Assembly (NCBI GenBank): GCA_017461665.1
Contig: JAFTXI010000004.1
Location: forward strand, 1 to 62,790
DNA: 62,790 nt
DNA from: Bacteroidales bacterium
GTDB lineage: Bacteria > Bacteroidota > Bacteroidia > Bacteroidales > F082
Direction: 5' to 3'
The position numbers and the translations under genes are program-made. Below, in pieces: positions 15,609-61,673 of the stretch. The notes below the pieces were generated by a model that did not search any database, was not told the DNA's origin, and saw only the letters and a program-made list of their open reading frames with translations. Each line of letters opens with the position of its first letter. The first letter of the stretch is position 1.

Positions 15609-15660
15609 GAGACGCTTCAATTACATCGTGTTTATTTTAAAGGTGTAATTGGAACGTCTC
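15609..15660 (+). repeat. Fold-back repeat R1, copy 1
   Basis: Ends GAGACG and CGTCTC; inner arms CAATTACA and GTGTAATTGG; centre with TGTTTATTTT. Nearly identical to copy 3 at 49701. It is flanked by ACTTATAGACTCATAGACTT-type heptamer repeats. It lies between the S4 gene and the sialidase. Confidence 0.85.
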
Positions 15661-15709
15661 TACTTATAGACTCATAGACTTATAGACTCTGGACGTATTC
15701 GATACGTCC
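15661..15709. repeat. TATAGACTCATAGACT units plus GGACGTAT palindrome
   Basis: Three ACTTATAG/ACTCATAG heptamer-like units, then a palindrome GGACGTAT-TCG-ATACGTCC (15691-15709) matching the one at 144-162. Confidence 0.65.
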
Positions 15710-15756
15710 CTACAAAAAAATCTGTTGTCTGTTGTCCGATGTCTGTTGACTTTTCT

Positions 15757-15764
15757 TATCTTTG
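15757..15764 (+). promoter_or_regulatory. -7 promoter box of the sialidase gene
   Basis: TATCTTTG ends 14 bases before the ATG at 15779, with TTG at 15732-15734 upstream. It lies inside the longer in-frame ORF, supporting the 15779 start. Confidence 0.5.
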
Positions 15765-15778
15765 TCAAAAAGATTATT

Positions 15779-16894
15779 ATGAAAAAGTTACTTCTCCCTT
15801 TATTGATATTGATAGCTTTCTTACCTTCATGCGAGAAGAAAGATTCTTTCGACGGATTCACTCGTACCGTCGTCTATCGTTCTGGCGATTATGGCTCAAA
15901 ATATTATAGAATACCGGCGATTATTACGGCTAAAGACGGTAGCCTTGTCATCTTTACCGATAAGAGAAAAGAGAACGAAACCGACCTTCCTGAAGACATC
16001 GACATTTTATGTAACTACAGCACCGACGGCGGCGTGACATGGAGCGAGCCTTACACTCTCGCGCAGGGCTTTGGTTATATGGAAGGATTCGGCGACTGCG
16101 CCGTGACATACACCAATCACGAGAAAGGTCTCATCGCAGTCTTCGTAGGCGGTCAAGGCTTGTGGCAATCGACGCCGACAAATCCAAATCGCACCTATAA
16201 ATCTGTTAGCTACGACAACGGTCGCACATGGAGCGAGCCTGAAGATATAACACATTTCATCTTCGGAAGCGAATGTGAAGACAGCATAAGAAGAAATTGG
16301 CGTGCCTCGTTCTGCGCCTCGGGCAACGGACTCCTCACAAGCAAAGGACGTATCATGTTCGTGGCTTGTATTCGTGAGACGCTCAATTATTCTTTAAATA
16401 ATTACGTGATATATTCCGACGACGATGGCGAGACTTGGAATGTCTCTGGTCGTGCTTCTGTCGGTGGCGACGAGGCTAAGGTGGTGGAACTCAATAATGG
16501 CGACATCTTGATGAGCATACGTACCACCGGAAAGAGATGGTATAACATCTCACATGACGGCGGCGTCACCTGGAACGAAACGACTTACGCCTGGGACGAC
16601 CTCGTAGGTCCAGCTTGTAACGGCGACTTGATACGATATGACGAAAACACTTTGTTACATAGTCTCCCAACAGGCAACTCACGCCGCGACGTGGCAATAT
16701 ATGTCTCCAAAGACGAAGGCAAGACTTGGAACGATGGAAAAATCATAGTACCTCGCTTCTCGGCATATTCTTCTATGTGCGTGCTGCCTGATAAGTCGAT
16801 TGGATTTTATGTGGAAGAAAGGGAAGTGGATACTACAAGTTACGAGATGGTTTTTTATAGAATTAGGAATGAGGAATTAGGAATGAGGAATTAG
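15779..16894 (+). CDS. Exo-alpha-sialidase lipoprotein (BNR/Asp-box)
   Basis: Likely releases terminal sialic acids from glycoconjugates outside the cell. The 371-residue product starts with a lipoprotein signal (LLPLLILIAFLPSC, lipid Cys about 18). The sialidase Arg-Ile-Pro motif is in YYRIPAI, followed by FTDKRKENETD. At least five Asp-boxes (S-x-D-x-G-x-T-W) recur: STDGGVTW, SYDNGRTW, SDDDGETW, SHDGGVTW, SKDEGKTW, giving the six-bladed propeller. The last eleven codons are read from a 14-bp tandem repeat that has replaced the native 3' end. No sialate catabolism genes are nearby, so it may serve scavenging or cross-feeding. Confidence 0.88.
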   Translation: MKKLLLPLLILIAFLPSCEKKDSFDGFTRTVVYRSGDYGSKYYRIPAIITAKDGSLVIFTDKRKENETDLPEDIDILCNYSTDGGVTWSEPYTLAQGFGYMEGFGDCAVTYTNHEKGLIAVFVGGQGLWQSTPTNPNRTYKSVSYDNGRTWSEPEDITHFIFGSECEDSIRRNWRASFCASGNGLLTSKGRIMFVACIRETLNYSLNNYVIYSDDDGETWNVSGRASVGGDEAKVVELNNGDILMSIRTTGKRWYNISHDGGVTWNETTYAWDDLVGPACNGDLIRYDENTLLHSLPTGNSRRDVAIYVSKDEGKTWNDGKIIVPRFSAYSSMCVLPDKSIGFYVEEREVDTTSYEMVFYRIRNEELGMRN

Positions 16895-16940
16895 GAATGA
16901 GGAATTAGGAATGAGGAATTAGGAATGAGGAATTAGGAAT
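16858..16940 (+). repeat. 14-bp tandem repeat, about six units
   Basis: Unit GAATTAGGAATGAG repeated head to tail. It begins inside the sialidase reading frame and supplies its final codons and TAG stop, then runs on into the spacer. Confidence 0.85.
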
Positions 16941-17027
16941 GAATGTGTCTAATAGGGACGCGTCTTTTGATGATAAATTCTCAATTAAAAATCCTTCGTT
17001 ATCTGCAATTTGTCATCAGTCTTTTTT

Positions 17028-17035
17028 TATCTTTG
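17028..17035 (+). promoter_or_regulatory. -7 promoter box of ftsB
   Basis: TATCTTTG, 15 bases before the ATG at 17051; it rules out in-frame starts further upstream. Confidence 0.5.
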
Positions 17036-17050
17036 CAAAAAATATTCGTT

Positions 17051-17350
17051 ATGCAGTTCAAGGAAATCTTAAGGAAATTCGGTAACAAGTATCTCATTGC
17101 AACTCTTATCTTTGCAGTGATAATTCTTTTCGTCGATCAATATAATATCTTCTTTCAGATAAAGAATTTCAAGAAACTTAACAAGGCTAAGGAACAGGTC
17201 GAATATTACGAAAAGGAAATCCAAAACCAAAAGGAAGTCTTAGAGAACCTTCACAAAGATACCCTTCTCATGGAACGTATCGCTCGCGAAAAATATATGA
17301 TGAAACGCGATAATGAAGTGATATACATTATTCAAAATGATGAAGAATGA
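17051..17350 (+). CDS. FtsB/DivIC-like septum formation initiator
   Basis: Small bitopic cell-division protein of 99 residues. A short cytoplasmic tail is followed by one membrane helix (YLIATLIFAVIILFVDQYN, about 16-35), then a coiled coil with Glu/Lys/Gln heptads (residues 40-75), and the C-terminal segment ARE-K-Y-MMKRDNEVIYII typical of this family. It would join FtsL and FtsQ at the septum. The start at 17051 fits a promoter box just upstream and the usual family length. Confidence 0.87.
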   Translation: MQFKEILRKFGNKYLIATLIFAVIILFVDQYNIFFQIKNFKKLNKAKEQVEYYEKEIQNQKEVLENLHKDTLLMERIAREKYMMKRDNEVIYIIQNDEE

Positions 17351-17394
17351 TTTTTTTAATTCATAATTCATAATTAGGGATGAATGTGTTAGTA

Positions 17395-17447
17395 GATACG
17401 TACCAATTACACCTACAAGAATAAACAATATGTAATTGATGCGTCTC
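17395..17447 (-). repeat. Fold-back repeat R1, copy 2
   Basis: Outer ends GATACG and CGTCTC (one substitution from GAGACG); inner arms CAATTACA and TGTAATTG; centre AATAAACAATA, i.e. inverted relative to copy 1. Confidence 0.8.
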
Positions 17448-17479
17448 ATCTTCGTGTCAACAGACAATAGATTATTTTG

Positions 17480-17592
17480 TAAATCTAAAAATCTGAAAAA
17501 TTGAAAACCTAAAAAAATCTCAGATTCTCAAGTTTTGAATTTCTGAGATTTTAAATTCTGAATTTCTTAGGTTTTGAAATTTTGAAATTTCT
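17480..17592. repeat. AT-rich imperfect hairpin upstream of efflux operon
   Basis: Two nested pairs of complementary blocks (ACCTAA/TTAGGT and TCTCAGA/TCTGAGA) with AAATTTTGAAATTT-type filler. Related AATCTGAGAATCTGAAAA units occur at 15571 and 49667. Confidence 0.55.
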
Positions 17593-17653
17593 TTTTAAAG
17601 TAGTTTTTTTCCCGTTTCGTGGTAAACAAATCTTTATTTTTTTGTTTTAACAT

Positions 17654-17661
17654 TATCTTTG
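17654..17661 (+). promoter_or_regulatory. -7 promoter box of the efflux operon
   Basis: TATCTTTG. The first in-frame ATG (17666) is only 4 bases further on, so the likely start is the third ATG at 17681. Confidence 0.5.
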
Positions 17662-17680
17662 TAACATGAAAATGATTGTT

Positions 17681-18973
17681 ATGAAAATAAAGTTATTGTT
17701 TATCTTTCTGATGTCGTCGTTCGTGATAAATGCGCAGGACGACAGCGTCCCGTTGAGATTTACTTTAGAAGAATGTCTGAAATATGCAAGTAGCAACAGT
17801 CACGATCGGCGTTCGATGGAGCTTGCCAACAAGTCGCAGCAGCTGTCGTATCAGCAGTCGAAGGAGCAGCGTCTTCCGTCGGTGAATGCTTCTATCAGCG
17901 AAGGTTTCTCGAACAACGCTGCAGGTTCGAACTTCTCCGGCAATATTGGCGTCAATGCAGGAATGCCGATTTATCAAGGAGGACAAATCAACGCTACTAT
18001 AAAACAGCAGCAGCTATCAACCGAGCAGTCGTCTCTCGAGATAGAGCGTTACGATGATGAGCTTTCAATACAAATACTTCAGTCTTTCCTCACGATACTC
18101 GGTAATGAGGAACTCCTTAATTATCAGGAATCTGTCTTGAACAGCAGTCGCGAGGCTATGAAACAAGGCAAACGAAAATACGAGTTAGGCTCAATAATAG
18201 AAAGCGACTATCTGCTCCTCGTTGCTCAATATGCCTCCGACACCAATAACATCGTCGATACTCAGATAGAGATTGACAACAACCTGATGAATCTTAAGGT
18301 TTTGCTCTCGATGGATCCTCTCGCTGAGTTGGAGATAATAAGTCCCGACACAGCGATAATGCAGGAACTCTCCGACTTTCCAACTCTCGACGAGTCGTTG
18401 GAGATGTCGCTTGCTTATTCACCAGACCTTAAGATAAGCAGCTACGACATCGACATCGCCAAGCAGTCGCTGCGAGTAGCAAAGTCGAATCTTTATCCAT
18501 CAGTGAATCTGAGTGCTGGAATAAACACAGGTCATCATAATTTCACCAATATGGGAAACCAGTTTTCGAACCAACTATCTGAACAGATAGGTCTGTCGGT
18601 GAGCATACCAATTTATAACAGAGGCTCTTCCAAACTGAGAGTCAAGCAGAGCGAGATATCCTTAGAACAGACGGAATTGTCGCACGAACAGAAGATTCTT
18701 TCTGTGAGACAGACGATAGTTCAAGAGTATAAGAATATGATTTCTACCTATAATAAATATAATGTCTCGAAGATGACCAAAGACGCATATCTTAAATCAT
18801 TCGAGTCGTATAACGTTCAATTTCAATATGGAACTATCACAGCAGTGGAACTTCTTCAGCAACAGAACAGCTATCTCAATGCATTGAATAATTTCATTCA
18901 AAATAAATATTCCTTCATCTTGCAAAGAAAAATATTAGATGTTTATATGGGAAAGGGGATAATTAGGAATTAG
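17681..18973 (+). CDS. TolC-family outer-membrane efflux protein
   Basis: Outer-membrane channel of a tripartite pump, 430 residues from ATG 17681 (in-frame ATGs at 17666 and 17672 sit almost on the promoter). The signal peptide is MKIKLLFIFLMSSFVINAQ. Two outer-membrane-efflux repeats follow, each with long helices rich in Gln/Ser/Leu (QQQLSTEQSSLEIERYDDEL; LSHEQKILSVRQTIVQEYKN) and the conserved YELGSI and YNVQFQYG-T-I-T turns. It heads the operon with MacA- and MacB-like genes. The last codons and stop (IRN-TAG) are read from an AATTAGGAAT repeat, so the native C-terminus may differ. Confidence 0.9.
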   Translation: MKIKLLFIFLMSSFVINAQDDSVPLRFTLEECLKYASSNSHDRRSMELANKSQQLSYQQSKEQRLPSVNASISEGFSNNAAGSNFSGNIGVNAGMPIYQGGQINATIKQQQLSTEQSSLEIERYDDELSIQILQSFLTILGNEELLNYQESVLNSSREAMKQGKRKYELGSIIESDYLLLVAQYASDTNNIVDTQIEIDNNLMNLKVLLSMDPLAELEIISPDTAIMQELSDFPTLDESLEMSLAYSPDLKISSYDIDIAKQSLRVAKSNLYPSVNLSAGINTGHHNFTNMGNQFSNQLSEQIGLSVSIPIYNRGSSKLRVKQSEISLEQTELSHEQKILSVRQTIVQEYKNMISTYNKYNVSKMTKDAYLKSFESYNVQFQYGTITAVELLQQQNSYLNALNNFIQNKYSFILQRKILDVYMGKGIIRN

Positions 18974-18977
18974 GAAT
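18961..18977 (+). repeat. AATTAGGAATTAGGAAT repeat at tolC stop codon
   Basis: Same family as 16858-16940; provides the last three sense codons and the TAG of the tolC-like gene. Confidence 0.65.
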
Positions 18978-19009
18978 GAGAGAAAAGAAATAATAAAAAT
19001 AAAAAAAAT

Positions 19010-20296
19010 ATGAAAAAACGTAGTTTAATAATTTTCTTGATTGTGTTTCTTGGAGTGGCAGCCTTCGTATTATATAAGGTGTTTTCCAAGTCGGAGAAGG
19101 AACTTGTGGTTCGTACTTATGTCGTTGACGAATATACTGTTGAGAACACTGTCACTGCCACGGGTACTATTCAACCTTTAGAGCAGGTCGAAGTGGGAAC
19201 GCAGGTGTCAGGTGAGATTGACAAAATTTTCGTCGATTATAATTCTGTCGTCAAGAAGGGACAGCTCTTGGCTGAGTTGGATAAATCTAATCTTTTGGAG
19301 AATCTTCGTCAGGCTGAGGCTTCGGTGAGAAGTGCCGAGAGTGAGTTGGAATATTCCAAGACGAGTTACGAGAGGACGAAACAACTTTATGAAGCAAACG
19401 CTGCAACACAGATAGCTTACGATGAGTCGCGTAACGCCTTGGTGAAGGCAGAGACTTCCTTACAGAACGCGCAGTCAAACTTAGACAAGGCAAAGGTAAA
19501 TCTTGGTTATGCCGAGATATATTCTCCTATTGATGGCGTTGTTCTTTCTCGTGAGGTGGAAGTGGGACAGACCGTAGCGGCTTCTTACAGCACGCCTACT
19601 TTGTTTACCATCGCCAACGACTTGACACAGATGAAGGTAGAAGCCGATGTCGATGAGGCTGATATAGGTCAGGTCGTGGAAGGACAGAAGGTTACGTTCT
19701 CTGTCGATGCTTATATCGACGATGTCTTTTATGGTGAGGTACAACAGATTAGGTTACAACCTACGACAACAAATAATGTCGTTACATATACTGTTATCAT
19801 CACGGCGCACAACCCTGACTTGAAGTTGCTTCCTGGTATGACGGCGAGTGTTACTATTATCACCGAGGAGGAGACGGGTCTTGCTGTCCCATCGGAGGCG
19901 TTGAGTTTTATGCCGTCGGAAGATGTGATGAAAGAGATGATGAAGAACCGTCCTGAGCGTCCAGAAGGCAATATGCCTCCGCGTCCACAGGGACGACCTT
20001 CGATGGAAGAGATGGGGGAAGGTCGTGCGCAGGCTCAGCCTCGTGAGATGGTTTGGGTTAAAGAAAACGGTACTATAAAACCGTGTCCTATCAAGACTGG
20101 CATGAGCGACGGCGTCTATCGCATAGTGGAACAAGGTCTTATGCAAGGCGACTCTGTGGTGTTGTCGGCTAATTATGTCGATAAGAATTTGGGACCACAG
20201 AAGATTGGAAACAATCCTTTCATGCCAGGACCTCCAGGTGGACCTCGTAACACGCAGAACACTAATAACAATGGAAGAACAACGCCTAAAAGATAA
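19010..20296 (+). CDS. macA: MacA-like periplasmic adaptor (HlyD/RND family)
   Basis: Membrane-fusion subunit of 428 residues linking the ABC permease to the TolC channel. One N-terminal helix (LIIFLIVFLGVAAFVLYKVF) anchors it. Lipoyl halves (ATGTIQPLEQVEVGTQVSGE; YAEIYSPIDGVVLSREVEVG) flank a coiled-coil hairpin of Ala/Gln/Ser repeats (about 100-165), followed by beta-barrel and membrane-proximal domains. Odd features are a Met/Pro/Arg-rich insert (about 308-340: RPERPEGNMPPRPQGRPSME) and a Gly/Pro/Asn-rich tail, both low complexity and probably disordered. The ATPase gene starts 5 bases after the stop. Confidence 0.9.
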   Translation: MKKRSLIIFLIVFLGVAAFVLYKVFSKSEKELVVRTYVVDEYTVENTVTATGTIQPLEQVEVGTQVSGEIDKIFVDYNSVVKKGQLLAELDKSNLLENLRQAEASVRSAESELEYSKTSYERTKQLYEANAATQIAYDESRNALVKAETSLQNAQSNLDKAKVNLGYAEIYSPIDGVVLSREVEVGQTVAASYSTPTLFTIANDLTQMKVEADVDEADIGQVVEGQKVTFSVDAYIDDVFYGEVQQIRLQPTTTNNVVTYTVIITAHNPDLKLLPGMTASVTIITEEETGLAVPSEALSFMPSEDVMKEMMKNRPERPEGNMPPRPQGRPSMEEMGEGRAQAQPREMVWVKENGTIKPCPIKTGMSDGVYRIVEQGLMQGDSVVLSANYVDKNLGPQKIGNNPFMPGPPGGPRNTQNTNNNGRTTPKR

Positions 20297-20301
20297 GAGT
20301 C

Positions 20302-21033
20302 ATGACTAAGGCAATATTGCAGATAGAAAATCTTACACGCGTCTTTCAGGTAGGCGCGGAGCAGGTTCATGCCTTGAAAGGTGTCACGTTCTCCATAGAG
20401 AAGGGTGAGTTCGTCAGCATCATGGGTTCGAGCGGAAGCGGTAAATCGACGCTGCTAAACATCATGGGCTGCTTAGATACACCTACCTCCGGCGAATATC
20501 TCATCGACGGCGTCTCGGTGAGAGAAAGAACTAAAAACGAACTTGCCGACATAAGAAACCGTAAAATAGGCTTTGTGTTTCAGTCGTATAACTTGTTGGC
20601 GCGTACCACGGCACTCGAGAACGTGGAGCTGCCTCTCATATATAATAATAAGGTGAGTTCGCGCGAGCGACGCGAGCGCGCACAATATGCTCTCGAAATG
20701 GTGGGACTCACCGACAGAATGTCGCATACCCCGAATCAACTGTCGGGTGGACAGCAACAACGCGTGGCAATAGCTCGCGCCATCGTCAACGACCCCGTCA
20801 TAATACTCGCTGATGAAGCGACGGGTAACTTGGATACTAAGACGTCATACGAGATAATGAGTCTGTTTCAAGAACTTAACGAAAAAGGAAAGACGATAGC
20901 TTTCGTGACACACGAGACAGACATCGCGACTTTCACCTCACGCGTGATAACACTGCGCGATGGTAACATAATCAGCGATAACATCAATGAAGCTAAATCC
21001 GCGATAATAGCTCTCGAAGAATTTTGTAAATAA
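20302..21033 (+). CDS. MacB-type ABC transporter ATP-binding protein
   Basis: Cytosolic ATPase of 243 residues in the LolD/MacB/FtsE class. Walker [10 protein letters not shown] (about 42-50), Q-loop ([11 protein letters not shown]), signature LSGGQQQR, Walker B IILADEAT and the H-loop (FVTHETD) are intact. In E. coli MacB the ATPase is fused to the permease; here they are separate genes 11 bases apart, as often in Bacteroidetes. It powers export of an unidentified substrate (macrolide, peptide or lipid). Confidence 0.93.
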
Positions 21034-21044
21034 TTAAACTTAAT

Positions 21045-22265
21045 ATGAATATTTTAAACTTAATAAAGATAGCTTATAAATCGCTGATGCGTAATAAGAT
21101 GAGAGCCTTCCTTACCATGCTCGGTATCGTGATAGGAATATCTTCTGTCATCACGATGGTTGGAGTGGGAGAGAGCTCGCAAGCGAGTATCAACAATCAG
21201 GTGTCGCAGATGGGAACAAATCTCATCATGGTTCATAGAGCGAGGATGCGCGAGAGAGGCGTCTCTACAGGTCGCGATAATGTGCAGTCGCTCAAGGTGA
21301 AAGATGTAGATCTCCTCGCAAAGAACGCCAAATATCTCTCGGCAGTGAGTCCTGTCTTTAACGCAAACGCACAGATTATCAATGGTAACTATAACTGGTC
21401 GGGAAGTATCATGGGAGGTAATACCGACTTGATGGAGATTCGTAAGTTCGAACTCGCTACGGGTTCCAACTTCACCGAAGAAGACATAAAAAAATATTCC
21501 AAGGTGGCGCTGATAGGACACACCATTGTTGAAGAACTCTTCGATGAGAACGTCGATCCGATAGGCAAGACGATACGCGTCGGCAATATGCCGGTGAAAG
21601 TCATAGGAACGCTTAAGCCAAAAGGCGAGAACCAGATGGGTGAAGACCAAGACGATATTTTGATAATGCCTTATACCACAGTGCAGAAACGTATACTCGG
21701 AATAGATTTCATTCACATGATAATGGGCTCGGCTGTCTCTGAAGAACTCGCCGACAAAGCCGTCGAAGAGATAGAGACGCTGCTCCGTGCCTCACATAAA
21801 ATCAAAGATGGAGCAGCCGACGACTTCGAGGTACGTACCCAAGCTGAGATGCTCGAGATGATGTCGTCGATAAGCGGAATGATGACAACGCTTCTGACAG
21901 CAATAGCTGCTATCTCGTTGATAGTAGGCGGTATAGGTATCATGAATATCATGTATGTCACCGTCACTGAACGTACAAAGGAGATTGGACTACGAATGTC
22001 GATAGGCGCACATAACAGCAGCATATTGCTACAATTTCTCTGTGAGAGCGTGATATTAAGCCTCATCGGCGGACTCATCGGAATAATACTCGGACTGCTT
22101 CTCTCATACGTAATATCAATCGTTCAAGGAATGCCTTTTATCGTAAGTACTTCTGCTGTAGTACTTTCATTTGTAGTATGTGCAGCGACGGGAATATTCT
22201 TTGGTTGGTATCCAGCTAAAAAAGCAGCTTCTTTAGATCCTATTAACGCATTAAGATACGAATGA
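21045..22265 (+). CDS. MacB-like ABC transporter permease (FtsX family)
   Basis: Permease of 406 residues with the MacB layout: helix 1 at about 18-40 (MRAFLTMLGIVIGISSVITM), a large periplasmic MacB_PCD domain, then three helices near 282, 328 and 370 with the FtsX signature (GGIGIMNIMYVTVTERTKEIGLRMSIGA). Mechanotransmission rather than through-membrane transport is expected for this fold. Its stop overlaps the start of the histidine kinase gene (ATGA), coupling the pump to its probable regulator. Confidence 0.93.
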   Translation: MNILNLIKIAYKSLMRNKMRAFLTMLGIVIGISSVITMVGVGESSQASINNQVSQMGTNLIMVHRARMRERGVSTGRDNVQSLKVKDVDLLAKNAKYLSAVSPVFNANAQIINGNYNWSGSIMGGNTDLMEIRKFELATGSNFTEEDIKKYSKVALIGHTIVEELFDENVDPIGKTIRVGNMPVKVIGTLKPKGENQMGEDQDDILIMPYTTVQKRILGIDFIHMIMGSAVSEELADKAVEEIETLLRASHKIKDGAADDFEVRTQAEMLEMMSSISGMMTTLLTAIAAISLIVGGIGIMNIMYVTVTERTKEIGLRMSIGAHNSSILLQFLCESVILSLIGGLIGIILGLLLSYVISIVQGMPFIVSTSAVVLSFVVCAATGIFFGWYPAKKAASLDPINALRYE

Positions 22266-23353: not shown

Positions 23354-23362
23354 TTTTAAGAA

Positions 23363-24127: not shown

Positions 24128-24209
24128 TAGAAAAATGTTTTTTTATTCATAAATTTTCATTTTCTAAGACATTACTTTTTATAATTGATTATTTTTGCAA
24201 AAAAAAGAT

Positions 24210-49700: not shown

Positions 49701-49753
49701 GAGACGCTTCAATTACATCGTGTTTATTTTTAAAGGTGTAATTAGAACGTCTC
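49701..49753 (+). repeat. Fold-back repeat R1, copy 3
   Basis: GAGACG...CGTCTC ends; differs from copy 1 by one extra T in the centre and one substitution (GTGTAATTAG). Confidence 0.85.
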
Positions 49754-49867
49754 TACTCATAGACTTATAGACTCGGTGACTCGGTTCCCTCAAAAACTCC
49801 TTGAATTTTTCTTAAAACATTTTCCATTTTCCCTTGTTTCATATCCACAAAATAAAATATAAAGGTT

Positions 49868-51070: not shown

Positions 51071-51123
51071 GAGACGTATCAATTACATATTGTTTATTGT
51101 CAATAGTGTAATTGGTGCGTCTC
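51071..51123 (+). repeat. Fold-back repeat R1, copy 4 (at ackA stop)
   Basis: GAGACG...CGTCTC; arms CAATTACA and GTGTAATTGG; centre TATTGTTTATTG. The repeat edge overlaps the last base of the ackA stop codon; on the minus strand the TAG is part of the conserved flank TAGAGACG. Confidence 0.85.
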
Positions 51124-52322
51124 TACTTCACAAGGTCGTATGTGTCTTTTGCTATCATATATTCTTCGTCGGTAGGGAACACTATGACGGTGACTTTGGA
51201 GTCGGGTGCTGAGATGACTTTAGTCTCGCCCATCAAGCCTTTGTTGAGTTCCATATCGACTTTCACTCCGAGATATTCCATGTCTTGTAAGATAGGACCT
51301 CTCATGAACCAAGCGTTTTCGCCAATGCCGCCTGTCATAACGATGATGTCAACGCCATTCATCACAGCAGCGTAAGCTCCGATATATTTCTTTACGCGAT
51401 GTTTGAACATATTGAAAGCGTAGGTGCTGCGTTTGTCGCCTGCTTCACGACCAGCGTTAACGTCGCGCATATCTTGTTTGTCGCCAGTGATACCGATAAG
51501 TCCCGATTTCTTGTTGACGAGAGTGTTCATCTGTTTGAGGTCGTAGCCTTCTTTTTCAGCTATATACATAAACACGCCGAGGTCTAAGTCGCCGGTACGA
51601 CTGCCCATCATAAGACCTTCAACAGGAGTGAATCCCATGGAAGTATCGACTGATTTTCCGTTTTGTACAGCTGCTATAGAGGCGCCGCTGCCTAAGTGAC
51701 AGGTGATGATTTTCTGGTCTTTCCAGTCTTTACCTAAATACTCGGCTGCTCTTTCAGCTACATATTTATGACTTGTTCCGTGGAATCCATAACGACGCAC
51801 GCGGTATTTCTCATAATATTCGTAAGGAATAGGATAGAGGTAAGCCTCAGGTTTCATTGTGGAATGGAAGGCAGTGTCGAAGCAGCCACCTTGTTTTACG
51901 TTAGGAAGCAATTCTGTCACAGCCTTCACGCCTGCTATGCAAGCCGGGTTGTGAAGAGGAGCGAGGTCGATGAGTTCTTCCATCAATTCCATCACGCTGT
52001 CGTCGATGAGCACGCTTTTGGTGAACTTCTCTCCGCCATGAACCAAACGATGTCCGATAGCTCCAATCTCATCTAACGACTTGATGACGCCATGTTTCTC
52101 ATCAATCAAAGCGTTAAGAACTATACTGATACCAGCAGTGTGATTTGGAATAGGAAGTTGTTCGTAATGTTTCTCGCCATTCCATTTGTGAGTAAATTCT
52201 CCCATCTCGAGGCCTATACGTTCAAGAATACCTTTCGCCATTACGTTGTGACTTTCATCGTTAATATCAAGAAGCTGATATTTTATTGAAGAACTGCCAC
52301 AGTTTAAAACTAAAATTTTCAT
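51123..52322 (-). CDS. ackA: Acetate kinase
   Basis: Interconverts acetyl phosphate plus ADP with acetate plus ATP, giving the ATP of acetate fermentation. The 399-residue product has the family N-terminus MKILVLNCGSSSIKYQL, the FGFHGTSH-like YGFHGTSHKYV, CHLGSGASI and TGGIGENAW segments. It follows pta after 24 bases on the same strand (spacer of three TGTTAAT units), the standard operon order. Its stop codon belongs to repeat R1 copy 4. Confidence 0.97.
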   Translation of the reverse strand: MKILVLNCGSSSIKYQLLDINDESHNVMAKGILERIGLEMGEFTHKWNGEKHYEQLPIPNHTAGISIVLNALIDEKHGVIKSLDEIGAIGHRLVHGGEKFTKSVLIDDSVMELMEELIDLAPLHNPACIAGVKAVTELLPNVKQGGCFDTAFHSTMKPEAYLYPIPYEYYEKYRVRRYGFHGTSHKYVAERAAEYLGKDWKDQKIITCHLGSGASIAAVQNGKSVDTSMGFTPVEGLMMGSRTGDLDLGVFMYIAEKEGYDLKQMNTLVNKKSGLIGITGDKQDMRDVNAGREAGDKRSTYAFNMFKHRVKKYIGAYAAVMNGVDIIVMTGGIGENAWFMRGPILQDMEYLGVKVDMELNKGLMGETKVISAPDSKVTVIVFPTDEEYMIAKDTYDLVK

Positions 52323-53354: not shown

Positions 53355-53392
53355 ATTGTTACAATTATTACGTTTACTGAAATTAAGAATTA

Positions 53393-53423
53393 CAAAGGTA
53401 AAATCTATTTCTGAAATTTCAAA
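53393..53423 (-). promoter_or_regulatory. Promoter of pta-ackA
   Basis: Minus strand TTTG (53420-53423), 19-base spacer, TACCTTTG (53393-53400), 38 bases before the pta ATG. Confidence 0.65.
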
Positions 53424-53436
53424 AAAAATCTAAATA

Positions 53437-53469
53437 TTTGTTAAGAAAAAAAACAAAGATGTAAATTTG
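53437..53469 (+). promoter_or_regulatory. Promoter of DUF4271 gene
   Basis: TTTG (53437-53440), 21-base spacer, TAAATTTG (53462-53469), 18 bases before the ATG. Divergent from and only 13 bases away from the pta promoter. Confidence 0.55.
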
Positions 53470-53487
53470 CAAACCGAATAAATAAAA

Positions 53488-54279: not shown

Positions 54280-54354
54280 AATACTGAAAATCATTTTTAT
54301 TTCATAGGAGGAAGTGGAATTTTTAGAATAGGAAAAAGATAAAAAAGATAGTAG

Positions 54355-55119: not shown

Positions 55120-55124
55120 TTTCA

Positions 55125-55541
55125 ATGAACGAACGACTTCCGAAAGAGCAGCGTTTATATAAGAAAAAAGCTATCGAACAACTATTCGGAAAGGGTAAAG
55201 GATTCAACCTCTATCCTTTCCGAGTTGTCGTTTATAAACATGCCTCGGAAGAAAACGAACCTTCAATACCGCGATTCCTCGTCTCGGTCTCAAAAAAAAG
55301 ATTCCATCACGCCTTCAAACGCAACAGAGTCAAACGACTTGTAAGAGAGTCATGGAGAAGAAACAAATCTGATATAGTTGTTAAATGCGAACAACATAAA
55401 ATCACTTTCGATTTCGCACTTGTTTATACTGCAACAACAATTTTATCATACGAAGAGATAGAAAAGAAAATAAAACAATTATCTTTGCGTTTGAAAAATG
55501 ATTATTTCAATGATGAAGATACTCGCACAACTGCCGGCTAA
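55125..55541 (+). CDS. rnpA: Ribonuclease P protein component
   Basis: Basic protein subunit that helps the RNase P RNA cut pre-tRNA 5' leaders. The 138-residue product has the RNR-type motif [20 protein letters not shown] (central, about 65-85). Here it sits after hemD rather than beside rpmH/dnaA, the arrangement usual in Bacteroidales. Its 3' end overlaps yidD by up to 44 bases. Confidence 0.93.
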
Positions 55542-55743
55542 ATTAATGATACTGCTTATACGCATCTATCAACTCACATTGTCGCCTTTCATTGGCAGAA
55601 ACTGCAGATACACACCAACTTGCTCCAATTATGGAATTGAAGCAATAAGGAAATATGGCGCCATCAAAGGTGGATGGCTGACAATAAAACGAATATTATC
55701 GTGTAACCCTTGGGGCGGTAGCGGTTACGATCCCGTCCCGTAG
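55498..55743 (+). CDS. yidD: Membrane protein insertion efficiency factor YidD
   Basis: Product of 81 residues, possibly 76-77 if translation begins at the ATGs at 55510 or 55513. The family core is clear: [40 protein letters not shown] and [14 protein letters not shown], including the three conserved Cys. It aids YidC/Sec insertion at the inner membrane. It overlaps rnpA in another frame, the classic rnpA-yidD coupling. Its TAG stop abuts repeat R1 copy 5. Confidence 0.93.
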
Positions 55744-55745
55744 TA

Positions 55746-55797
55746 GAGACGCGTCAATTACACCAATAAAAATAAATAATCTGTAATTGACACGTCT
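55746..55797 (-). repeat. Fold-back repeat R1, copy 5
   Basis: Starts GAGACG three bases after the yidD stop (TAG-TAG-AGACG); arms CAATTACA and TGTAATTG; right end CGTCTG with one mismatch. Centre AAATAAATAAT in the inverted orientation. Confidence 0.8.
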
Positions 55798-55823
55798 GAT
55801 TAATATGGATTAAAATTTTTGTT

Positions 55824-57482
55824 ATGAATAAATTAAGGATCTTATTATTTGTATTGTTGTTTTTCCCTGTCGTGACTTTTGCCCAAGAAAAACAAAACAA
55901 TTTCGAAATCTCCAAGAGTTTGGACATTTATAATAATGTGTTAAGATATCTCAACATGAATTATGTTGATGAGATAAATCCGGCGGAACTTAACGAGACT
56001 GCTATTCACGCGATGCTCAAGGAGTTGGATCCTTATACGGTTTTTATCCCAGAGTCTGAGATTGAAGATGTAAGACTTCTTACCATGGGAGAATACGGCG
56101 GAATAGGTTCGATTATTCAATATTATGACAATAATGTTCACATCTCAGAACCTTACGAGAACTTCCCAGCTCACAAAGCCGGCCTGATTCCTGGCGATGC
56201 AATCATCGAGGTTAATGGTGTCAACACAGAGAAGAAGACCGTGAGTGAAGTGAGCGAACTCCTTAAAGGTCAGCCTGGTTCAGATATTACTTTGAAAATT
56301 AGACGCGAAGGTGAAAAAAACATCCTTACCAAAAACCTCGTACGCGAGAAAATAAAAATCGATAATATTCCTTATTACACTGTTCTCGAAGGCAGCGTGG
56401 CTTATATCATTCTGAACCAATTCACTAAAGACGCTGCTAAAGAACTGAAGGAGGCCTTCTTAGAGATGAAATCGCAAAACGAACTCAAAGGTCTCATCAT
56501 CGACCTTAGAGGCAACGGTGGCGGTCTGCTCAACGAAGCCGTCGATATCGTAAATCTCTTCGTCCCGAAAAATAAACTCGTCGTCTATACAAAAGGAAAG
56601 ACAGCCGAACAAAACAGGAACTATTATACCAAACACGAAGCCGAAGATATGCAGATTCCTCTCGCAATTCTTGTTAACGAGACAAGTGCTTCGGCAAGCG
56701 AAATAGTGTCAGGCGCAATACAAGATTTCGACAGAGGTGTTATCGTTGGCCAAAGAACTTTCGGTAAAGGATTGGTACAGAACATACTTCCAATGACTTA
56801 TAACACTCAGATGAAAGTGACAGTGTCTAAATATTATATCCCAAGCAAACGTTGTATCCAAGAGATTGACTATTCAAAAAAAGCTAAGAACGACACTCTT
56901 GCAAAGAACGATACTCTCGGTCCTGAGTTTAAAACTGCCAACGGAAGAATCGTTTATGAAGGTCATGGCATTCAACCAGATGTGAAGATAGAACCTGAGA
57001 TGCTTTCTACAATCACAGCTCATCTTTACGCACAAAACATGATTTTTAAATATGCCAATAAATTCTATAGAGAACATAAATCTATAGCTTCTCCAGAAGC
57101 GTTCGAGATAACAGATGAGATTTACAATGACTTCGTTAAGTTTGTGGAAGACAGTAAGTTTGAATATACTTCTGAAAGTGAAAAAGATTTTGCAGAATTG
57201 GTGAAGACAGCTAAAACAGAAGGTTATTACGATAATATCAAATCTCAATTGGATGTTCTCGAAAATGAACTTAAGAGTCATAAAGACAACGACTTGATAA
57301 ATAACAGAGAAGAGATTTCAGAGATCCTTAAGATAGAAATAGTCGGTCGTTATTATTTCCAAAAAGGAAAGATAACATCAACCTTGAAAGATGATGTTGA
57401 GTTGAATCGTGCTGTTGAAATTCTTCTAAATACAAATGGTCAGAACGAATACGAAACATTGCTTAAAGGAATTAATAATTGA
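55824..57482 (+). CDS. S41-family C-terminal processing protease
   Basis: Exported serine protease of 552 residues that trims C-termini of envelope proteins. Signal peptide 1-20 (LLFVLLFFPVVTFAQ). A short N-terminal domain precedes a PDZ domain (about 90-165; AHKAGLIPGDAIIEVNG) and the S41 core with the Ser in TSASASEIVSGA (288-299) and Lys in RTFGKG (K315), the Ser-Lys dyad. A C-terminal extension of about 170 residues, Lys/Glu-rich, is typical of Bacteroidetes CtpA-like proteins. Confidence 0.92.
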   Translation: MNKLRILLFVLLFFPVVTFAQEKQNNFEISKSLDIYNNVLRYLNMNYVDEINPAELNETAIHAMLKELDPYTVFIPESEIEDVRLLTMGEYGGIGSIIQYYDNNVHISEPYENFPAHKAGLIPGDAIIEVNGVNTEKKTVSEVSELLKGQPGSDITLKIRREGEKNILTKNLVREKIKIDNIPYYTVLEGSVAYIILNQFTKDAAKELKEAFLEMKSQNELKGLIIDLRGNGGGLLNEAVDIVNLFVPKNKLVVYTKGKTAEQNRNYYTKHEAEDMQIPLAILVNETSASASEIVSGAIQDFDRGVIVGQRTFGKGLVQNILPMTYNTQMKVTVSKYYIPSKRCIQEIDYSKKAKNDTLAKNDTLGPEFKTANGRIVYEGHGIQPDVKIEPEMLSTITAHLYAQNMIFKYANKFYREHKSIASPEAFEITDEIYNDFVKFVEDSKFEYTSESEKDFAELVKTAKTEGYYDNIKSQLDVLENELKSHKDNDLINNREEISEILKIEIVGRYYFQKGKITSTLKDDVELNRAVEILLNTNGQNEYETLLKGINN

Positions 57483-57523
57483 CAATTAGCAGTTGACAAG
57501 CTGTTTATGCTTATATCTTGATT

Positions 57524-59188
57524 ATGAAAGTCGAATATGGTAAAACTGGAACTTATTTCTATCTTGTAGGATTGATATTGATAGCTATTTTTCTGCCTAC
57601 ATCTAAATTCGGCTTGAGTGTGTCGCAGTTTTATCTGTTGGCATTGTGGTTTTTGCTCGGTCTTGATATGCGAGCCATTAACAAGATGTTTCCGGAGAAA
57701 TCGTTTGTAAGTAGAATATTTTCACGTATCGTAGTCTCTTTCAAAGGAATATGGAATAACATAAAAACAAGATTCAACGATTTTATCCATAATAAGATAG
57801 CTGTTGTTATTGTCTTGATGTATCTGATACATTTTGTCGGCTTGATTTATACTTCAGATTTTCAATACGCTTTTAAAGATCTTAGAATTAAATTGCCATT
57901 ATTGGTGTTTCCTTTGATAATGTCGTCGATGAAACCTTTGAACACCAAACAGTTTGATACTGTATTATGGTTTTTTATCAGTTCAGTTTTATTCGTTACG
58001 ATACTTGGAGCTATAAAATATTTCCGTCGCGACTTTGTTGATGTGAGAGAATTGTCGGTTTTCGTCAGTCATATTCGCGTTTCTCTTTGTATGGTTTTTT
58101 CAATATTTATATTGGTCTATTATTTCTTCAAGCGAAATTATAAACCAATAGTTAAAACAATAATACTTTTCTTGATAATATGGTTCTTATGGATGATAGT
58201 AATTTTGGAATCTTTCATCGGAGTCTTGATTATTGTTTTCTTAGCGTTGACCTTGATTTTATATCGTGTCTTTCAAAGTGAGAGATTATATGTTAAAATT
58301 TTTGCGGTAGTAGCCGTTGTCGTAGCACTTTCATATATTATCTATGCTCCATATAAGATTATACACGACTATAGGAATCCTGATAAAGTTATTGTCGAAC
58401 AATTAGATACGCATACAAAACTTGGAAATCCATACGTCTTCGATACTATCCATTATAGAATTGAAGATGGGCGTTATGTAGGGTTATATCTTTCAAAAAA
58501 AGAAATGCTTGACGCTTGGAATAAGAGAAGTAATAAAAAATTAACAAAAGAATCCGATAAAGGTTATCATAGTTTAGTGCGTTATCTTACATCTAAAGAT
58601 TTAAGAAAAGATGCTGAAGGTGTTTCAATGCTCACCGACGATGATATAAGAAATATTGAAAATGGAATAGCAAACTATAATTATATAGAAAATCCTGGCT
58701 TTAAGACACGTATCATGAAGATAATGGTGGCTTACGATAATTATGCTTGTAGTGGTGATGCTAATGGAAGTTCTGTGTTTCAGAGAATTGAGTTTATAAA
58801 GGCTTCTTTCGGAATAATAAAGGATAATCCAATTATTGGCGTAGGAACAGGTGATATTGCTGATGCTTTCGCAGAATATTACGAAAGAACAGATTCAAAA
58901 TTAAAACCTGAAAATAGATTCCGCAGTCATAATCAATATCTTGCTATTACAGTGGCTTTTGGTGTTGTTGGATTGTTATGTTTCTTGTTCTCAATGTTTT
59001 ATCCATTCTTCTCTGATAAGAAATATCGTAACTATTTCTATTTTATCTTCTTGTTTATAATTGCGCTTTCAATGTTTACAGAAGACACTCTTGAGACCCA
59101 GATAGGAGTGACATTGTTTGCATTCTTCAACTCGCTGTTGATTTTTGTAATGCCATTGGAAGAGAATGAATCAGGCGAATGTAAATAA
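57524..59188 (+). CDS. O-antigen ligase-like / Wzy_C polytopic membrane protein
   Basis: Product of 554 residues from ATG 57524 (a TTG two codons earlier is in frame). About eleven membrane helices flank one large periplasmic loop (about 285-425), and the loop-end motif RFRSHNQYLAITVAFGVVG matches the conserved His region of Wzy_C proteins. These join or polymerise surface glycans. No glycosyltransferase cluster is adjacent, so a general ligase attaching O-glycan or A-LPS-type sugars is an attractive inference, notable beside a T9SS whose cargo can be linked to A-LPS. Convergent with GtrA, overlapping it by 18 bases. Confidence 0.85.
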   Translation: MKVEYGKTGTYFYLVGLILIAIFLPTSKFGLSVSQFYLLALWFLLGLDMRAINKMFPEKSFVSRIFSRIVVSFKGIWNNIKTRFNDFIHNKIAVVIVLMYLIHFVGLIYTSDFQYAFKDLRIKLPLLVFPLIMSSMKPLNTKQFDTVLWFFISSVLFVTILGAIKYFRRDFVDVRELSVFVSHIRVSLCMVFSIFILVYYFFKRNYKPIVKTIILFLIIWFLWMIVILESFIGVLIIVFLALTLILYRVFQSERLYVKIFAVVAVVVALSYIIYAPYKIIHDYRNPDKVIVEQLDTHTKLGNPYVFDTIHYRIEDGRYVGLYLSKKEMLDAWNKRSNKKLTKESDKGYHSLVRYLTSKDLRKDAEGVSMLTDDDIRNIENGIANYNYIENPGFKTRIMKIMVAYDNYACSGDANGSSVFQRIEFIKASFGIIKDNPIIGVGTGDIADAFAEYYERTDSKLKPENRFRSHNQYLAITVAFGVVGLLCFLFSMFYPFFSDKKYRNYFYFIFLFIIALSMFTEDTLETQIGVTLFAFFNSLLIFVMPLEENESGECK

Positions 59189-59572
59189 CAGATTAGCGAA
59201 AAAATTCCATATTGTGGTAATTCCAATAGCAAAGAGTTTACTCAGATAGAAATTCCATTTTAGTCTGTCGTTAAGGATATAAAGTACTAACGAATTGATT
59301 ACTAATCCAATTGTTGACACAATCATAAATTGGAAATATTGAGTTCCAATGTTCTCGTCATTACTTTCAAAAGTCCATAAGCGATTCAAGAAATAGTTTG
59401 ACGTGGCTGCTATAATGAAACCTAATCCATTACTTAAATACTTATTAATTTTTAAGAATTCTTTGCATAGATAAGTAGTGCCGAAATCTATTATCATTCC
59501 GGAACAACCAACGACTCCAAATTTTAAAAACTTGAGGAATAGGAACTTATCTAAAGCAAGCAAGCATTTCAT
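59171..59572 (-). CDS. GtrA-family membrane protein
   Basis: Small protein of 133 residues with four helices (about 13-33, 42-60, 78-100, 108-130) and the GCSGMIIDFGTTYL and NYFLNRLWTF segments of the family. GtrA-like proteins are thought to flip or move lipid-linked sugars for surface glycan modification, fitting the convergent ligase-like neighbour. Its last 18 bases overlap that gene. Confidence 0.88.
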   Translation of the reverse strand: MKCLLALDKFLFLKFLKFGVVGCSGMIIDFGTTYLCKEFLKINKYLSNGLGFIIAATSNYFLNRLWTFESNDENIGTQYFQFMIVSTIGLVINSLVLYILNDRLKWNFYLSKLFAIGITTIWNFFANLLFTFA

Positions 59573-59584
59573 CTGCTAAATCTA

Positions 59585-60463
59585 TTATTGATTCTCTTTA
59601 TTTTGTTTTGAACTGATACGTATTGTAATCCAGAACAAGGCAACCATCACTACTATGCTTAACAATGTGTAGAAGATATTTGTTTCGCCAAAGTTTTCTA
59701 CATCGATATTGGTGATACCTTTGTTGTTAAAATAATAAACTACTACAGCTGTTGCGTTGTTGGTGAAGTGCATAAGCATTGGGACCCAGATACTTTTGGA
59801 ATAGTAGAACATATAACCAAGAAGTAATCCCAAGACTAAGCGAGGTAAGAAACCGTAAAATTCAAAGTGGATGAATGAGAATATTGCTGAGGCGAGGAAA
59901 ATACCAATATGAACATTTTTGCAAATTTTTATTAAGAAAGGTTGTAATAATGAGCGAAAGAGCAATTCTTCACCGAAAGCGGCGAGTCCGGCAATCATGA
60001 TTAAGTTTATGATTAAACCACTGATATTGCTGACATTAAGCATCTTTTCTGTTATTTGTGTCGCCGATTCCTGCATGTCTTTCATCATCTTTTCTAAATG
60101 AGCCATGGATTCGGGAAGTCTTAACTCGGTATTCCATTCGGTAAAGATTGCATTAAGAGGATTGATGGCATACATCATGACAAATCCGATTATGAAAAAC
60201 AAAATGGGAGCTTTTCTAAAACTAAGCGAAAGCATAGGTTTTTCTTTGACCAAGCATGCGTATAACAAAGGTGGAAGGACGAATGTTAATATTTGTGAAC
60301 AAATCTGAGAGATGCGTAATATTCCAAGTTCACTTACGCTATCTTTTAAAAAAACGATAGCAACACTTATGATGAGAGATATAATGAGTCCAACGATTAA
60401 TAACGCAGCGAGAAGAAATATTCTTTCTATCGTACCGACCTTTTTGAAAAGAGGGAATGTCAT
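59585..60463 (-). CDS. CPBP-family intramembrane metalloprotease
   Basis: Membrane protein of 292 residues and about eight helices. The three family motifs are present: GEELLFR (E165, E166, R170), FSFIHFEFYGF (H199) and the third MLMHFTNNA (H232, N236), forming the glutamate/histidine metal site of CAAX-type proteases. Substrates are unknown; relatives act in peptide maturation or self-immunity. It is 12 bases upstream of gtrA on the same strand, so likely cotranscribed. Confidence 0.9.
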   Translation of the reverse strand: MTFPLFKKVGTIERIFLLAALLIVGLIISLIISVAIVFLKDSVSELGILRISQICSQILTFVLPPLLYACLVKEKPMLSLSFRKAPILFFIIGFVMMYAINPLNAIFTEWNTELRLPESMAHLEKMMKDMQESATQITEKMLNVSNISGLIINLIMIAGLAAFGEELLFRSLLQPFLIKICKNVHIGIFLASAIFSFIHFEFYGFLPRLVLGLLLGYMFYYSKSIWVPMLMHFTNNATAVVVYYFNNKGITNIDVENFGETNIFYTLLSIVVMVALFWITIRISSKQNKENQ

Positions 60464-60484
60464 AAATGTAAAGTTTTATTTTTG

Positions 60485-60492
60485 CAAATTTA
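60485..60492 (-). promoter_or_regulatory. -7 promoter box of CPBP/GtrA genes
   Basis: Minus strand TAAATTTG, 21 bases before the CPBP ATG. Confidence 0.45.
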
Positions 60493-60519
60493 ACACTTTT
60501 TTTGATAAGTTGAATTTAG

Positions 60520-60527
60520 TAACTTTG
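60520..60527 (+). promoter_or_regulatory. -7 promoter box of dus gene
   Basis: TAACTTTG, 52 bases before ATG 60580; divergent from the box at 60485. Confidence 0.5.
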
Positions 60528-60579
60528 CAAAATTCTTGGTGCGACGAATTTGTTGCATTGCTATATTAAATTGATATTG

Positions 60580-61560
60580 ATGATTAAGATTGCGAACATA
60601 GAATTTGAAGATATTCCTTTGTTGTTGGCGCCGATGGAAGGCGTTACCGATCCGCCTTTTCGCCGTATGTGTAAGGAGCAAGGTGCCGATGTCGTTTATT
60701 CGGAGTTTATCTCTTCTGACGGTCTCATCCGTGATGCCGTGAAGAGTGTGAGGAAGTTAGGTTTTGACGAGAAGGAGCGACCTTTTGGGGTGCAGATTTT
60801 TGGTAACAGCGTAGATCCTATGGTGGAAGCTGCGCGTTATGCTGAACGCTACGATCCTGATATTATTGACATTAACTTCGGATGTCCGGTTAAGAAAGTA
60901 GCTTCTAAGGGAGCAGGTTCGGGCATTCTCAACGATATTCCTAAGATGGTCGCGATTACGGAAGCCGTAGTGAAGGCTGTTAAGAAACCCGTCACGGTAA
61001 AGACGCGTCTTGGTTATGACAGCGAACATAAGGAGATAGTCGATATAGCTGAGCGTCTGCAAGACGTCGGAATACAAGCTCTTACGATTCATGGGAGGTT
61101 GAGAACGACGAAATGGGGCGAGCCAGCAGACTGGACACTGATAGGGGAGGTGAAGAACAACCCACGCATGACAATTCCTATCATAGGAAATGGCGACGTC
61201 GTTGACGGACCTTCCGCAAAATATTTCTTAGATAATTATGGTGTCGATGGCTTGATGATAGGACGCGCCACCTATGGAAACCCGTGGATTTTCAGAGAAG
61301 TGAAACATTATCTTAAGACGGGAGAAGTACTTCCGCCACCCGATGTCAAGGAGAGAGTGAGAGTTGCGAAAGCGCATCTTGCTGATTCTTTGGAGTATAA
61401 GAAAGACGAGTTTTATGCCGTCATGGAAATGCGCAAACACTGGGGACTTTATTTCAAAGGATTTATAAATTTCAAGCAGTTTAAAATGAGACTTATGGAA
61501 GTGAAGACCATTGAAGAAGTCTTTGCGATTTTAGACGAAGTAGCGGTGTATTATTGTTGA
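60580..61560 (+). CDS. dusB: tRNA-dihydrouridine synthase (DusB-like)
   Basis: FMN enzyme of 326 residues from ATG 60580 that reduces uridines in tRNA D-loops. The FMN/TIM-barrel motifs are LLLAPMEGVTDPPFRRMC, the catalytic Cys in DINFGCPVKKVASKGAGSG, VKTRLGYD, LTIHGRLRTTKW and GNGDVVDG with GRATYGNPWIF. An in-frame TTG start at 60550 would add ten residues without family support. The DusB class is typical of Bacteroidetes, but the exact uridine modified is not deducible. Confidence 0.94.
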   Translation: MIKIANIEFEDIPLLLAPMEGVTDPPFRRMCKEQGADVVYSEFISSDGLIRDAVKSVRKLGFDEKERPFGVQIFGNSVDPMVEAARYAERYDPDIIDINFGCPVKKVASKGAGSGILNDIPKMVAITEAVVKAVKKPVTVKTRLGYDSEHKEIVDIAERLQDVGIQALTIHGRLRTTKWGEPADWTLIGEVKNNPRMTIPIIGNGDVVDGPSAKYFLDNYGVDGLMIGRATYGNPWIFREVKHYLKTGEVLPPPDVKERVRVAKAHLADSLEYKKDEFYAVMEMRKHWGLYFKGFINFKQFKMRLMEVKTIEEVFAILDEVAVYYC

Positions 61561-61620
61561 AAATAGAAATCTTAAAATTGAAGGTTGCCTTCGACAGGTT
61601 CAGATTAGAGACAAAAGGTA

Positions 61621-61673
61621 GAGACGCACCAATTACACCATTGATAATAAACAATATGTAATTGATACGTCTC
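61621..61673 (-). repeat. Fold-back repeat R1, copy 6
   Basis: GAGACG...CGTCTC; arms CAATTACA and TGTAATTG; centre ATAATAAACAATA. Between the convergent dus and HAD genes, flank GTAGAGACG as in the other copies. Confidence 0.85.

Follow-up and report, generated by a model that had tools for sequence, protein, structure and literature searches.

R1, a family of GTAG-tagged palindromic repeats in gut Bacteroidales, and its likely partner transposase

Six copies of R1 in the window and further copies in the genome

The stretch of DNA analysed here, referred to as the window, comprises 62,790 nucleotides of a Bacteroidales genome (G000) and carries six copies of a hairpin repeat, termed R1, which has the anatomy of a repetitive extragenic palindromic (REP) element. 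All six copies claimed in an earlier note on this DNA were present, three on each strand. Their loci had been placed correctly, but the first three bases of a GTAG tag had been missed in each copy, and the unit, which has GTAG at one end in all six cases, is three bases longer than first given. The copies also lie between genes as had been claimed, except that two of them contribute to the stop codon of a neighbouring gene.

15609-15663, minus strand: R1 REP copy; GTAG tag at the 15663 end; T.G at the conserved mismatch; 79.9 bits.
17392-17447, plus strand: R1 REP copy; GTAG tag at 17392; T.G mismatch; 79.6 bits.
49701-49756, minus strand: R1 REP copy; T.G mismatch; 82.2 bits.
51071-51126, minus strand: R1 REP copy; C.A mismatch; the TAG stop of ackA comes from its tag; 83.5 bits.
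55743-55797, plus strand: R1 REP copy; C.A mismatch; its first base completes the TAG stop of yidD; 75.3 bits.
61618-61673, plus strand: R1 REP copy; C.A mismatch; 85.5 bits.

The scores refer to a covariance model of R1 that was built from these six copies, and their range (75-86 bits) is therefore high by construction. Read on the GTAG strand, the window copies have the layout GTAG-AGACG-3 bases-CAATTACA-C-loop-TGTAATTG-3 bases-CGTCT followed by a loose base; two of the six show single departures. The hairpin comprises the arms AGACG...CGTCT, then eight further pairs as a second arm, and an A-rich loop (18-19 nt) containing AATAAA. A search of the window with the inner-arm pattern, allowing up to three mismatches, returned six matches compared to 0.64 expected (100 shuffles, largest count 3). 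Five of these matches were R1 copies; the one at 55605 was not R1, and the copy at 15609 was missed. When three of the six copies were folded as DNA, z values of -4.3 to -8.5 were obtained for both strands. Rfam, applied to the window at the gathering score, recognized only three tRNAs and gave no match for R1. The window also contains a tandem repeat of the 14-mer GAATTAGGAATGAG at 16860-16956 and 15099-15153.

The model was then applied to the whole genome (2.49 Mb in 60 contigs, 94% complete). At least 149 matches were found at E<=1 among the best 150 of 1907 candidates scored, a few of them being opposite-strand readings or fragments. The stretches around the matches resolved into at least 156 distinct places, of which 145 measured 48-60 nt, seven were shorter and four longer; at least two of the seven shorter ones are of the short REP type GTAGAGACGTCAC..GTGGCGTCT. 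The expectation of many further copies was thus borne out. The earlier note had named two outcomes that would speak against its reading, namely that a genome search finds only the six copies or that all are ancestral at conserved gene ends with no empty sites in relatives; instead, the genome has about 150 copies, and relatives have sites that lack one. As is typical of REPs, the copies are numerous (156 places) and mainly intergenic. Four of them fall inside open reading frames (ORFs) of at least 300 nt as delimited by a simple ORF caller, and one of these ORFs is a recognized gene, encoding a DUF819 membrane protein (L148:405-1643) within which the copy lies in frame.

Some copies form arrays with a period of 75-90 nt, and several contigs stop within about 300 nt of a copy. 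Eight sets of identical copies were present, most of them with dissimilar flanks over 100 nt, while some flanks share simple repeats. Simple repeats such as gagtctatgagtcaataag and aagacaac occur around R1 copies and also in the DUF819 linker of other species. Two further repeats were seen next to R1: (i) a second short hairpin, GTAGGGACACATTGAATGTGTCC, which was found with its variants at L087, L091, L108, L136 and L153 of G000 and abuts the R1 tag in three of the five cases (the window and L081-L160 were searched); (ii) longer relatives of 81-85 nt with arms ATATGG/CCATAT, which adjoin R1 at G000:C23:85628-85708 and 85825-85905 (L108) and also at L028 and L107. Units similar to the latter flank transposase genes of the relatives G049 and G064, described below.

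Pairing of the R1 stem and position of copies relative to genes

For stem statistics the 156 places were reduced to 145 full-length copies, 134 distinct copies and finally 129 copies beginning with GTAG, GTAA, GCAG or TTAG. GTAG opens 121 of the 134 distinct copies. No conserved CTAC was seen in the right flank. GTAG is thus an unpaired tag on one side of the hairpin foot, as in GTAG-tagged REPs, although in 94 of the 134 its G could form a pair with the final base. Conservation ends at the tag and at CGTCT, with little information in the flanking columns. R1 is also an imperfect palindrome able to fold, as judged from pairing across the family and from the folding of three copies.

Pairs 2-6, 8 and 10-16 are of the Watson-Crick type in at least 124 of the 134 copies each. 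The compensating arm changes reported in the earlier note are real and extend to the genome copies: pair 8 covaries (A-T in 81, G-C in 38 and T-A in 13 copies), and four pair types are found at pair 14. Pair 9 is loose (C.A 64, T-A 34, T.C 32). The position that follows AGACG, pair 7, behaves differently. Among 129 copies T.G was found in 75, C.A in 50 and A.G in one, and only three had a Watson-Crick pair, compared to 61.5 paired copies expected under independence (Fisher p 6e-32 for the T/C by G/A table, a value that is descriptive since related copies are not independent). Because it was built from the six window copies, the R1 model may under-detect variants that are paired at this position. 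With a pattern that leaves pair 7 free, 106 copies were collected from ten other genomes (see below); after 17 with weak arm pairing had been dropped, the remaining 89 comprised 53 T.G, 31 C.A and five paired copies, and both mismatch forms occurred in all ten genomes. T.G and C.A are isosteric wobble pairs and have the same shape. The pair 7 mismatch resembles, by analogy, the one needed by the E. coli REP transposase TnpAREP. Overall, the R1 unit consists of GTAG and an imperfect hairpin in which the arms AGACG/CGTCT are followed by the fixed mismatch, a pair that covaries, another that is loose, about eight further pairs and an A-rich loop. A single match of the model among viral contigs (L257) was dismissed as a chance match; it has an A.T pair at the key stem position.

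On the GTAG strand, departures from Watson-Crick pairing at pairs 2-6, 8 and 10-16 (pairs 1, 7, 9 and 17 being omitted) comprised 26 G.T and 7 A.C cases, an excess of G.T (p 0.0013); 24 were of other kinds. With the innermost pair 17 added, the ratio was 26 to 12 (p 0.03). Judging from this excess, it is apparently the folding of the GTAG strand that is conserved.

R1 copies lie predominantly between co-directional genes (94 cases, with 32 convergent and eight divergent, using the simple ORF caller; 90, 33 and six with a stricter caller). When all gaps of 60 nt or longer in these stretches were counted, those with R1 were co-directional in 62, convergent in 19 and divergent in four cases, compared to 34, six and 14 for gaps without R1. 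In five of 135 testable copies, an open frame of 300 nt or more is terminated by a TAG made with the tag (yidD is shorter than that). For copies between co-directional genes, the median distance is 37.5 nt to the upstream stop as compared to 87 nt to the next start, and 66 of them are in sense orientation versus 24 in antisense (59 versus 20 when one copy per cluster is kept).

These preferences, together with the excess of G.T departures, are what one would expect if R1 were mainly an RNA element of gene 3' ends, a stabilizer or terminator-like hairpin under selection, with mobility being incidental. We regard this explanation as improbable, given that 20 of 79 thinned copies are still antisense, that the excess shrinks in convergent gaps (20 sense to 13 antisense with respect to the nearer gene; 8 to 8 beyond 100 nt from the stop), and that the choice between T.G and C.A is independent of orientation (Fisher p 0.31). 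Moreover, in the three copies tested RNA of the opposite strand gave the better fold, the hairpin is not followed by a strong T-run, and sites turn over between related species. The strand bias itself is also compatible with biased insertion or with selection on the GTAG single strand. R1 copies may still have a role at RNA 3' ends, as the earlier note had considered; a preference for gene 3' ends and for the sense strand is usual for REPs.

Distribution among relatives and the partner transposase

Eleven of 99 genomes of the genus, including G000, carry R1, with at least 40 scored copies each (up to 57 were scored per genome), while the model gave no match at E<=1e-5 in the other 88. G006 had one match at E<=1e-4, which overlaps a short double-foot hairpin, and 16 genomes representing other families of the order gave no match. 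AckA of the ten other carriers is 85-94% identical to that of the window, compared to 72-74% in eight of nine non-carriers searched (G006 gave none), and from this split the carriers look like one clade. In a scan of named genomes, the R1 pattern was present in at least ten metagenome-assembled genomes (MAGs) labelled Bacteroidales or Lentimicrobiaceae; six of the ten, among the matches listed (80 of 96 stretches), have ruminant-gut isolate names.

Loci with and without R1 were compared in relatives, and orthologous junctions were found to hold no copy, an R1 copy or another REP. At the ackA end, the copy at 51071-51126 is common to G000 and G053 and was not seen in the nine other carriers compared. 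At the end of yidD, R1 is present in G000, and the corresponding spot is occupied by a different GTAG hairpin in G053, a short REP in G049, an R1 variant in G059 and a diverged R1-like unit in G064; no hairpin was seen in G044 and G062. The copy at 61618-61673, at the dus junction, is likewise shared with G053 and was not found in G044, G062, G064 and G009. In the gap between g47676 and cbah, which in the window holds the copy at 49701-49756, no match to a regular expression for R1 was obtained in five relatives with the two genes less than 250 nt apart, in which g47676 is only 42-52% identical and orthology is unsure. The results for the window junctions agree with one another, although the regular expression used there overlooked the ackA copy of G053 as well as the unit of G064, and further degraded copies would escape it too.

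The DUF819 linker was compared in 12 of 13 genomes. It holds R1-type sequence in G000, G053, G044 and G042, a short GTAG hairpin in G049, simple repeats in G009, G064, G062 and G059, and none of these in G103, G014 and G006; in G045 the protein row looks R1-like. In L148:405-1643 and its orthologues, this linker thus contains in-frame R1, short REP or simple-repeat sequence, depending on the species.

It has to be considered whether R1 copies are ancestral, their spread being due solely to vertical inheritance, slippage and gene conversion. Tandem arrays and the two window copies which G053 has at the same site agree with such a history. They stand against the eight sets of identical copies with mostly dissimilar flanks, the R1-free sites in relatives and the lack of copies at E<=1e-5 in 88 of 99 genomes, and we consider a purely ancestral origin very unlikely.

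Pfam family PF01797 at E<=0.001 detected no Y1 transposase in G000 and none beside R1 elsewhere; it matched 70 of the 99 genus genomes. The resulting idea that R1 is an orphan was overturned by a lax PF01797 search of the 11 carriers, which gave weak matches in ORFs of about 170-270 residues located beside R1, and subsequently by an alignment of these proteins, REP-associated tyrosine transposases (RAYTs). R1 copies lie on one or both sides of the RAYT genes in G043:C14, G045:C46, G049:C84, G064:C85, G059:C103 and G059:C22. In G062:C65 an R1-type hairpin is located about 95 nt off on one side, and the RAYTs G059:C42 and G049:C34 adjoin the short REP GTAGAGACGTCAC..GTGGCGTCT. The arrangement of a REPtron, a RAYT flanked by copies, is therefore present in G043, G045, G049, G064 and G059 and one-sided in G062; that of G000 is broken. 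The closest RAYT pairs share an R1 subtype (TGACACATTACACC in G043 and G045, TATCAATTACACC...GCTGCGTCT in G049 and G064). All eight aligned rows have NHxH (as NHVH or NHIH), WQ and YIxxN, with YIxNN in seven; the distance from HUH to Y is 83-85 residues in the first row. NCBIfam REP_Tyr_transpos matched three R1-flanked proteins and one short-REP protein with E values of 1e-10 to 8e-14 (41-52 bits).

When the genus was searched with the RAYT alignment, 68 of 99 genomes gave matches. Scores of at least 280 bits were obtained only in the carriers G043, G045, G049, G059 and G064, the next best being 243.5 in a non-carrier. G000 itself has a broken relative at C23:85065-85612 (two frames, three TAA), situated among R1 copies at 84927, 85753 and 85950, and a second remnant, a fragment on C22 with two TGA. 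The R1 partner is thus likely a divergent RAYT of the HUH type that is missed by the Pfam cut-off, and the look-up of a transposase proposed in the earlier note was successful in six relatives. Strong Pfam Y1 matches of G009 and G053 were rejected as partners; they were not matched by the RAYT alignment at E<=1, and the one of G009 adjoins repeats unrelated to R1. A Y1 transposase of another group (L065:1866-2210, G009:C52) lies beside AGTCCGAAGGACTGCAAC repeats and perhaps belongs to a separate repeat system. A more distant RAYT in G062:C28 (L360) has GTAGAGACGTACGGACGTACGTCT hairpins on both sides.

Hairpins with GTAGAGACG were found near all 30 RAYT loci listed (one each from 30 of the 68 genomes with matches), compared to GTAGAGACG in three and a hairpin in two of 30 control loci of Pfam-positive Y1 genes. 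The hairpins beside RAYTs of non-carriers are short and have either T.G at the same stem position or full pairing. Two short REPs labelled C.A overlie T.G hairpins of the opposite strand, and because such double-foot hairpins can be read from both strands, short REPs give no usable covariation. A tree was calculated for 30 RAYTs from 35 loci (five without full ORF were dropped; G062:C65 was not among the 35), and hairpin types were labelled by hand. The number of changes was five for paired hairpins (shuffled mean 10.0), three for short wobble hairpins (7.1) and two for long R1 (5.5), with none of 500 shuffles as low for any of these labels. Wobble versus paired as a joint label, which has no shuffle comparison, required two changes. 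As far as these sequences go, the tree is clustered by hairpin type, with a weakly supported backbone and a long-branch warning from the program. The eight carrier RAYTs adjoining R1 or a short REP form one group (98/99), which is joined by RAYTs of short wobble REPs (93/93); this grouping suggests that R1 arose by enlargement of a short wobble REP present elsewhere in the genus.

In light of the HUH-type enzyme beside the copies, it is barely conceivable that R1 is a miniature inverted-repeat transposable element (MITE) of a DDE-type cut-and-paste transposase with matching terminal repeats: its terminal inverted repeats GAGACG/CGTCTC and high copy number would fit, but target duplications of 2-9 nt in 123 copies stayed within the range of 200 shuffles, the ends are asymmetric with GTAG on one side only, and no transposase was noticed by eye among ORFs of at least 90 amino acids between neighbouring copies, which resemble ordinary genes and for which no library search was made. 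The earlier suggestion of a REP/MITE-type element mobilized in trans consequently stands in its REP half, on account of the GTAG tag, the imperfect hairpin, the high copy number, the copy-free sites and the Y1/HUH transposase adjoining R1-type copies in relatives; a DDE-type MITE is not supported.

Interpretation and comparison with known systems

R1 is very probably a family of non-autonomous, GTAG-tagged REP elements with a RAYT like those of subclass 2.4, its mobility in trans being deduced from the anatomy of repeat and enzyme. It is a new family of a known kind of REP, not a new kind of element; the earlier note knew no name for it, and for the type there is one. Several points weigh against this interpretation. 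At 41-52 bits, the NCBIfam matches fall short of the curated threshold of 80, and Pfam scores do not reach 23. None of the eight rows shows the P that closes the subclass 2.4 signature YIxNNP. R1 is longer than most described REPs. In the carriers G053, G009, G042 and G044 no RAYT of the family was found at E<=1e-6 (at E<=1, the best of G053 had E 0.06 and the other three gave nothing), and G000 has remnants only; carriage of R1 and carriage of an intact RAYT are therefore not the same.

If R1 works like the E. coli system, the RAYT would recognize the GTAG strand as a folded single strand, read the tag and the mismatch and cut beside the hairpin, and R1 would be moved or copied into new sites without duplication. 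As the same parts, GTAG and the mid-stem mismatch, are conserved in R1, the same way of working appears most likely. The copies of G000 are probably not moving now, because the only RAYT relatives found are one broken gene and a short fragment, unless the portion of the genome absent from the assembly contains an intact gene.

More tentatively, with a chance that we put somewhat below even, the stem position after AGACG might act as a shape code. T.G and C.A would interchange there while true pairs are avoided, and RAYT lineages would be split into those of wobble and those of fully paired hairpins. On this view, R1 would have arisen in one clade by enlargement of a short wobble REP found throughout the genus, its RAYT evolving alongside, and R1 copies would persist as 3'-end elements in genomes that lost the enzyme.

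With R1, a clade of gut Bacteroidales known here from MAGs gains a countable mobile repeat family with a likely transposase, and it becomes evident that a Pfam cut-off hides the R1-type RAYT group. The natural series of RAYT/hairpin pairs, wobble versus fully paired, opens to direct testing whether REPs are recognized by sequence or stem shape. Genomes with many copies in which no intact RAYT was found would provide a way of testing how long a REP population survives the loss of its enzyme.

Among the papers listed in literature searches, none with a description of the R1 family was found. Like GTAG-tagged REPs (Di Nocera et al. 2013, PMC3733652), R1 has an unpaired GTAG at one end, a hairpin, high copy number and a RAYT with flanking REPs. 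Such REPs show similar habits in that they lie between unidirectional or convergent genes near 3' ends, provide TAG stops and have copies inside genes. In contrast, many REP families of that study measure 20-40 bp, a size which R1 exceeds (145 of 156 places have 48-60 nt), and have loops of 2-3 bp (larger in some) as opposed to a unit of about 55 nt with a loop of 18-19 nt. The comparison of R1 with the 24 families of that study was made at the level of such general features. It does fall within the size of 21-65 nt given for REPs elsewhere (PMC6006769).

By motifs and spacing, the R1 RAYT resembles those of TnpAREP subclass 2.4, or RAYT group 4, which go with long or double-foot REPs and are reported in Bacteroidetes (PMC6006769). 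NH[IFV]H and WQ are found in all eight rows and YIxNN in seven, the HUH-Y spacing in the first row compares with a median of 88 for the subclass, and double-foot hairpins lie beside RAYT relatives of the genus as they do in subclass 2.4. Unlike that subclass, R1 lacks the final P in its RAYTs and is single-footed with a large loop. REPINs (PMC3116915, PMC8049555) are likewise within-genome repeat populations, and some R1 copies form inverted pairs, for example beside the broken RAYT; unlike REPINs, many copies, including all six in the window, are single hairpins.

The closest functional parallel is provided by E. coli, whose TnpAREP acts strand-specifically and needs the GTAG motif and a mid-stem mismatch, changes that restored pairing having severely affected or eliminated activity (PMC8266576). 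Like that REP, R1 has the tag and a conserved mid-stem mismatch. The E. coli mismatch spans two bases (AA-GC), whereas in R1 it is a single covarying T.G or C.A position plus a looser position two pairs inward. A covarying mismatch that tracks the transposase tree may be the part of R1 which a specialist has not seen before.

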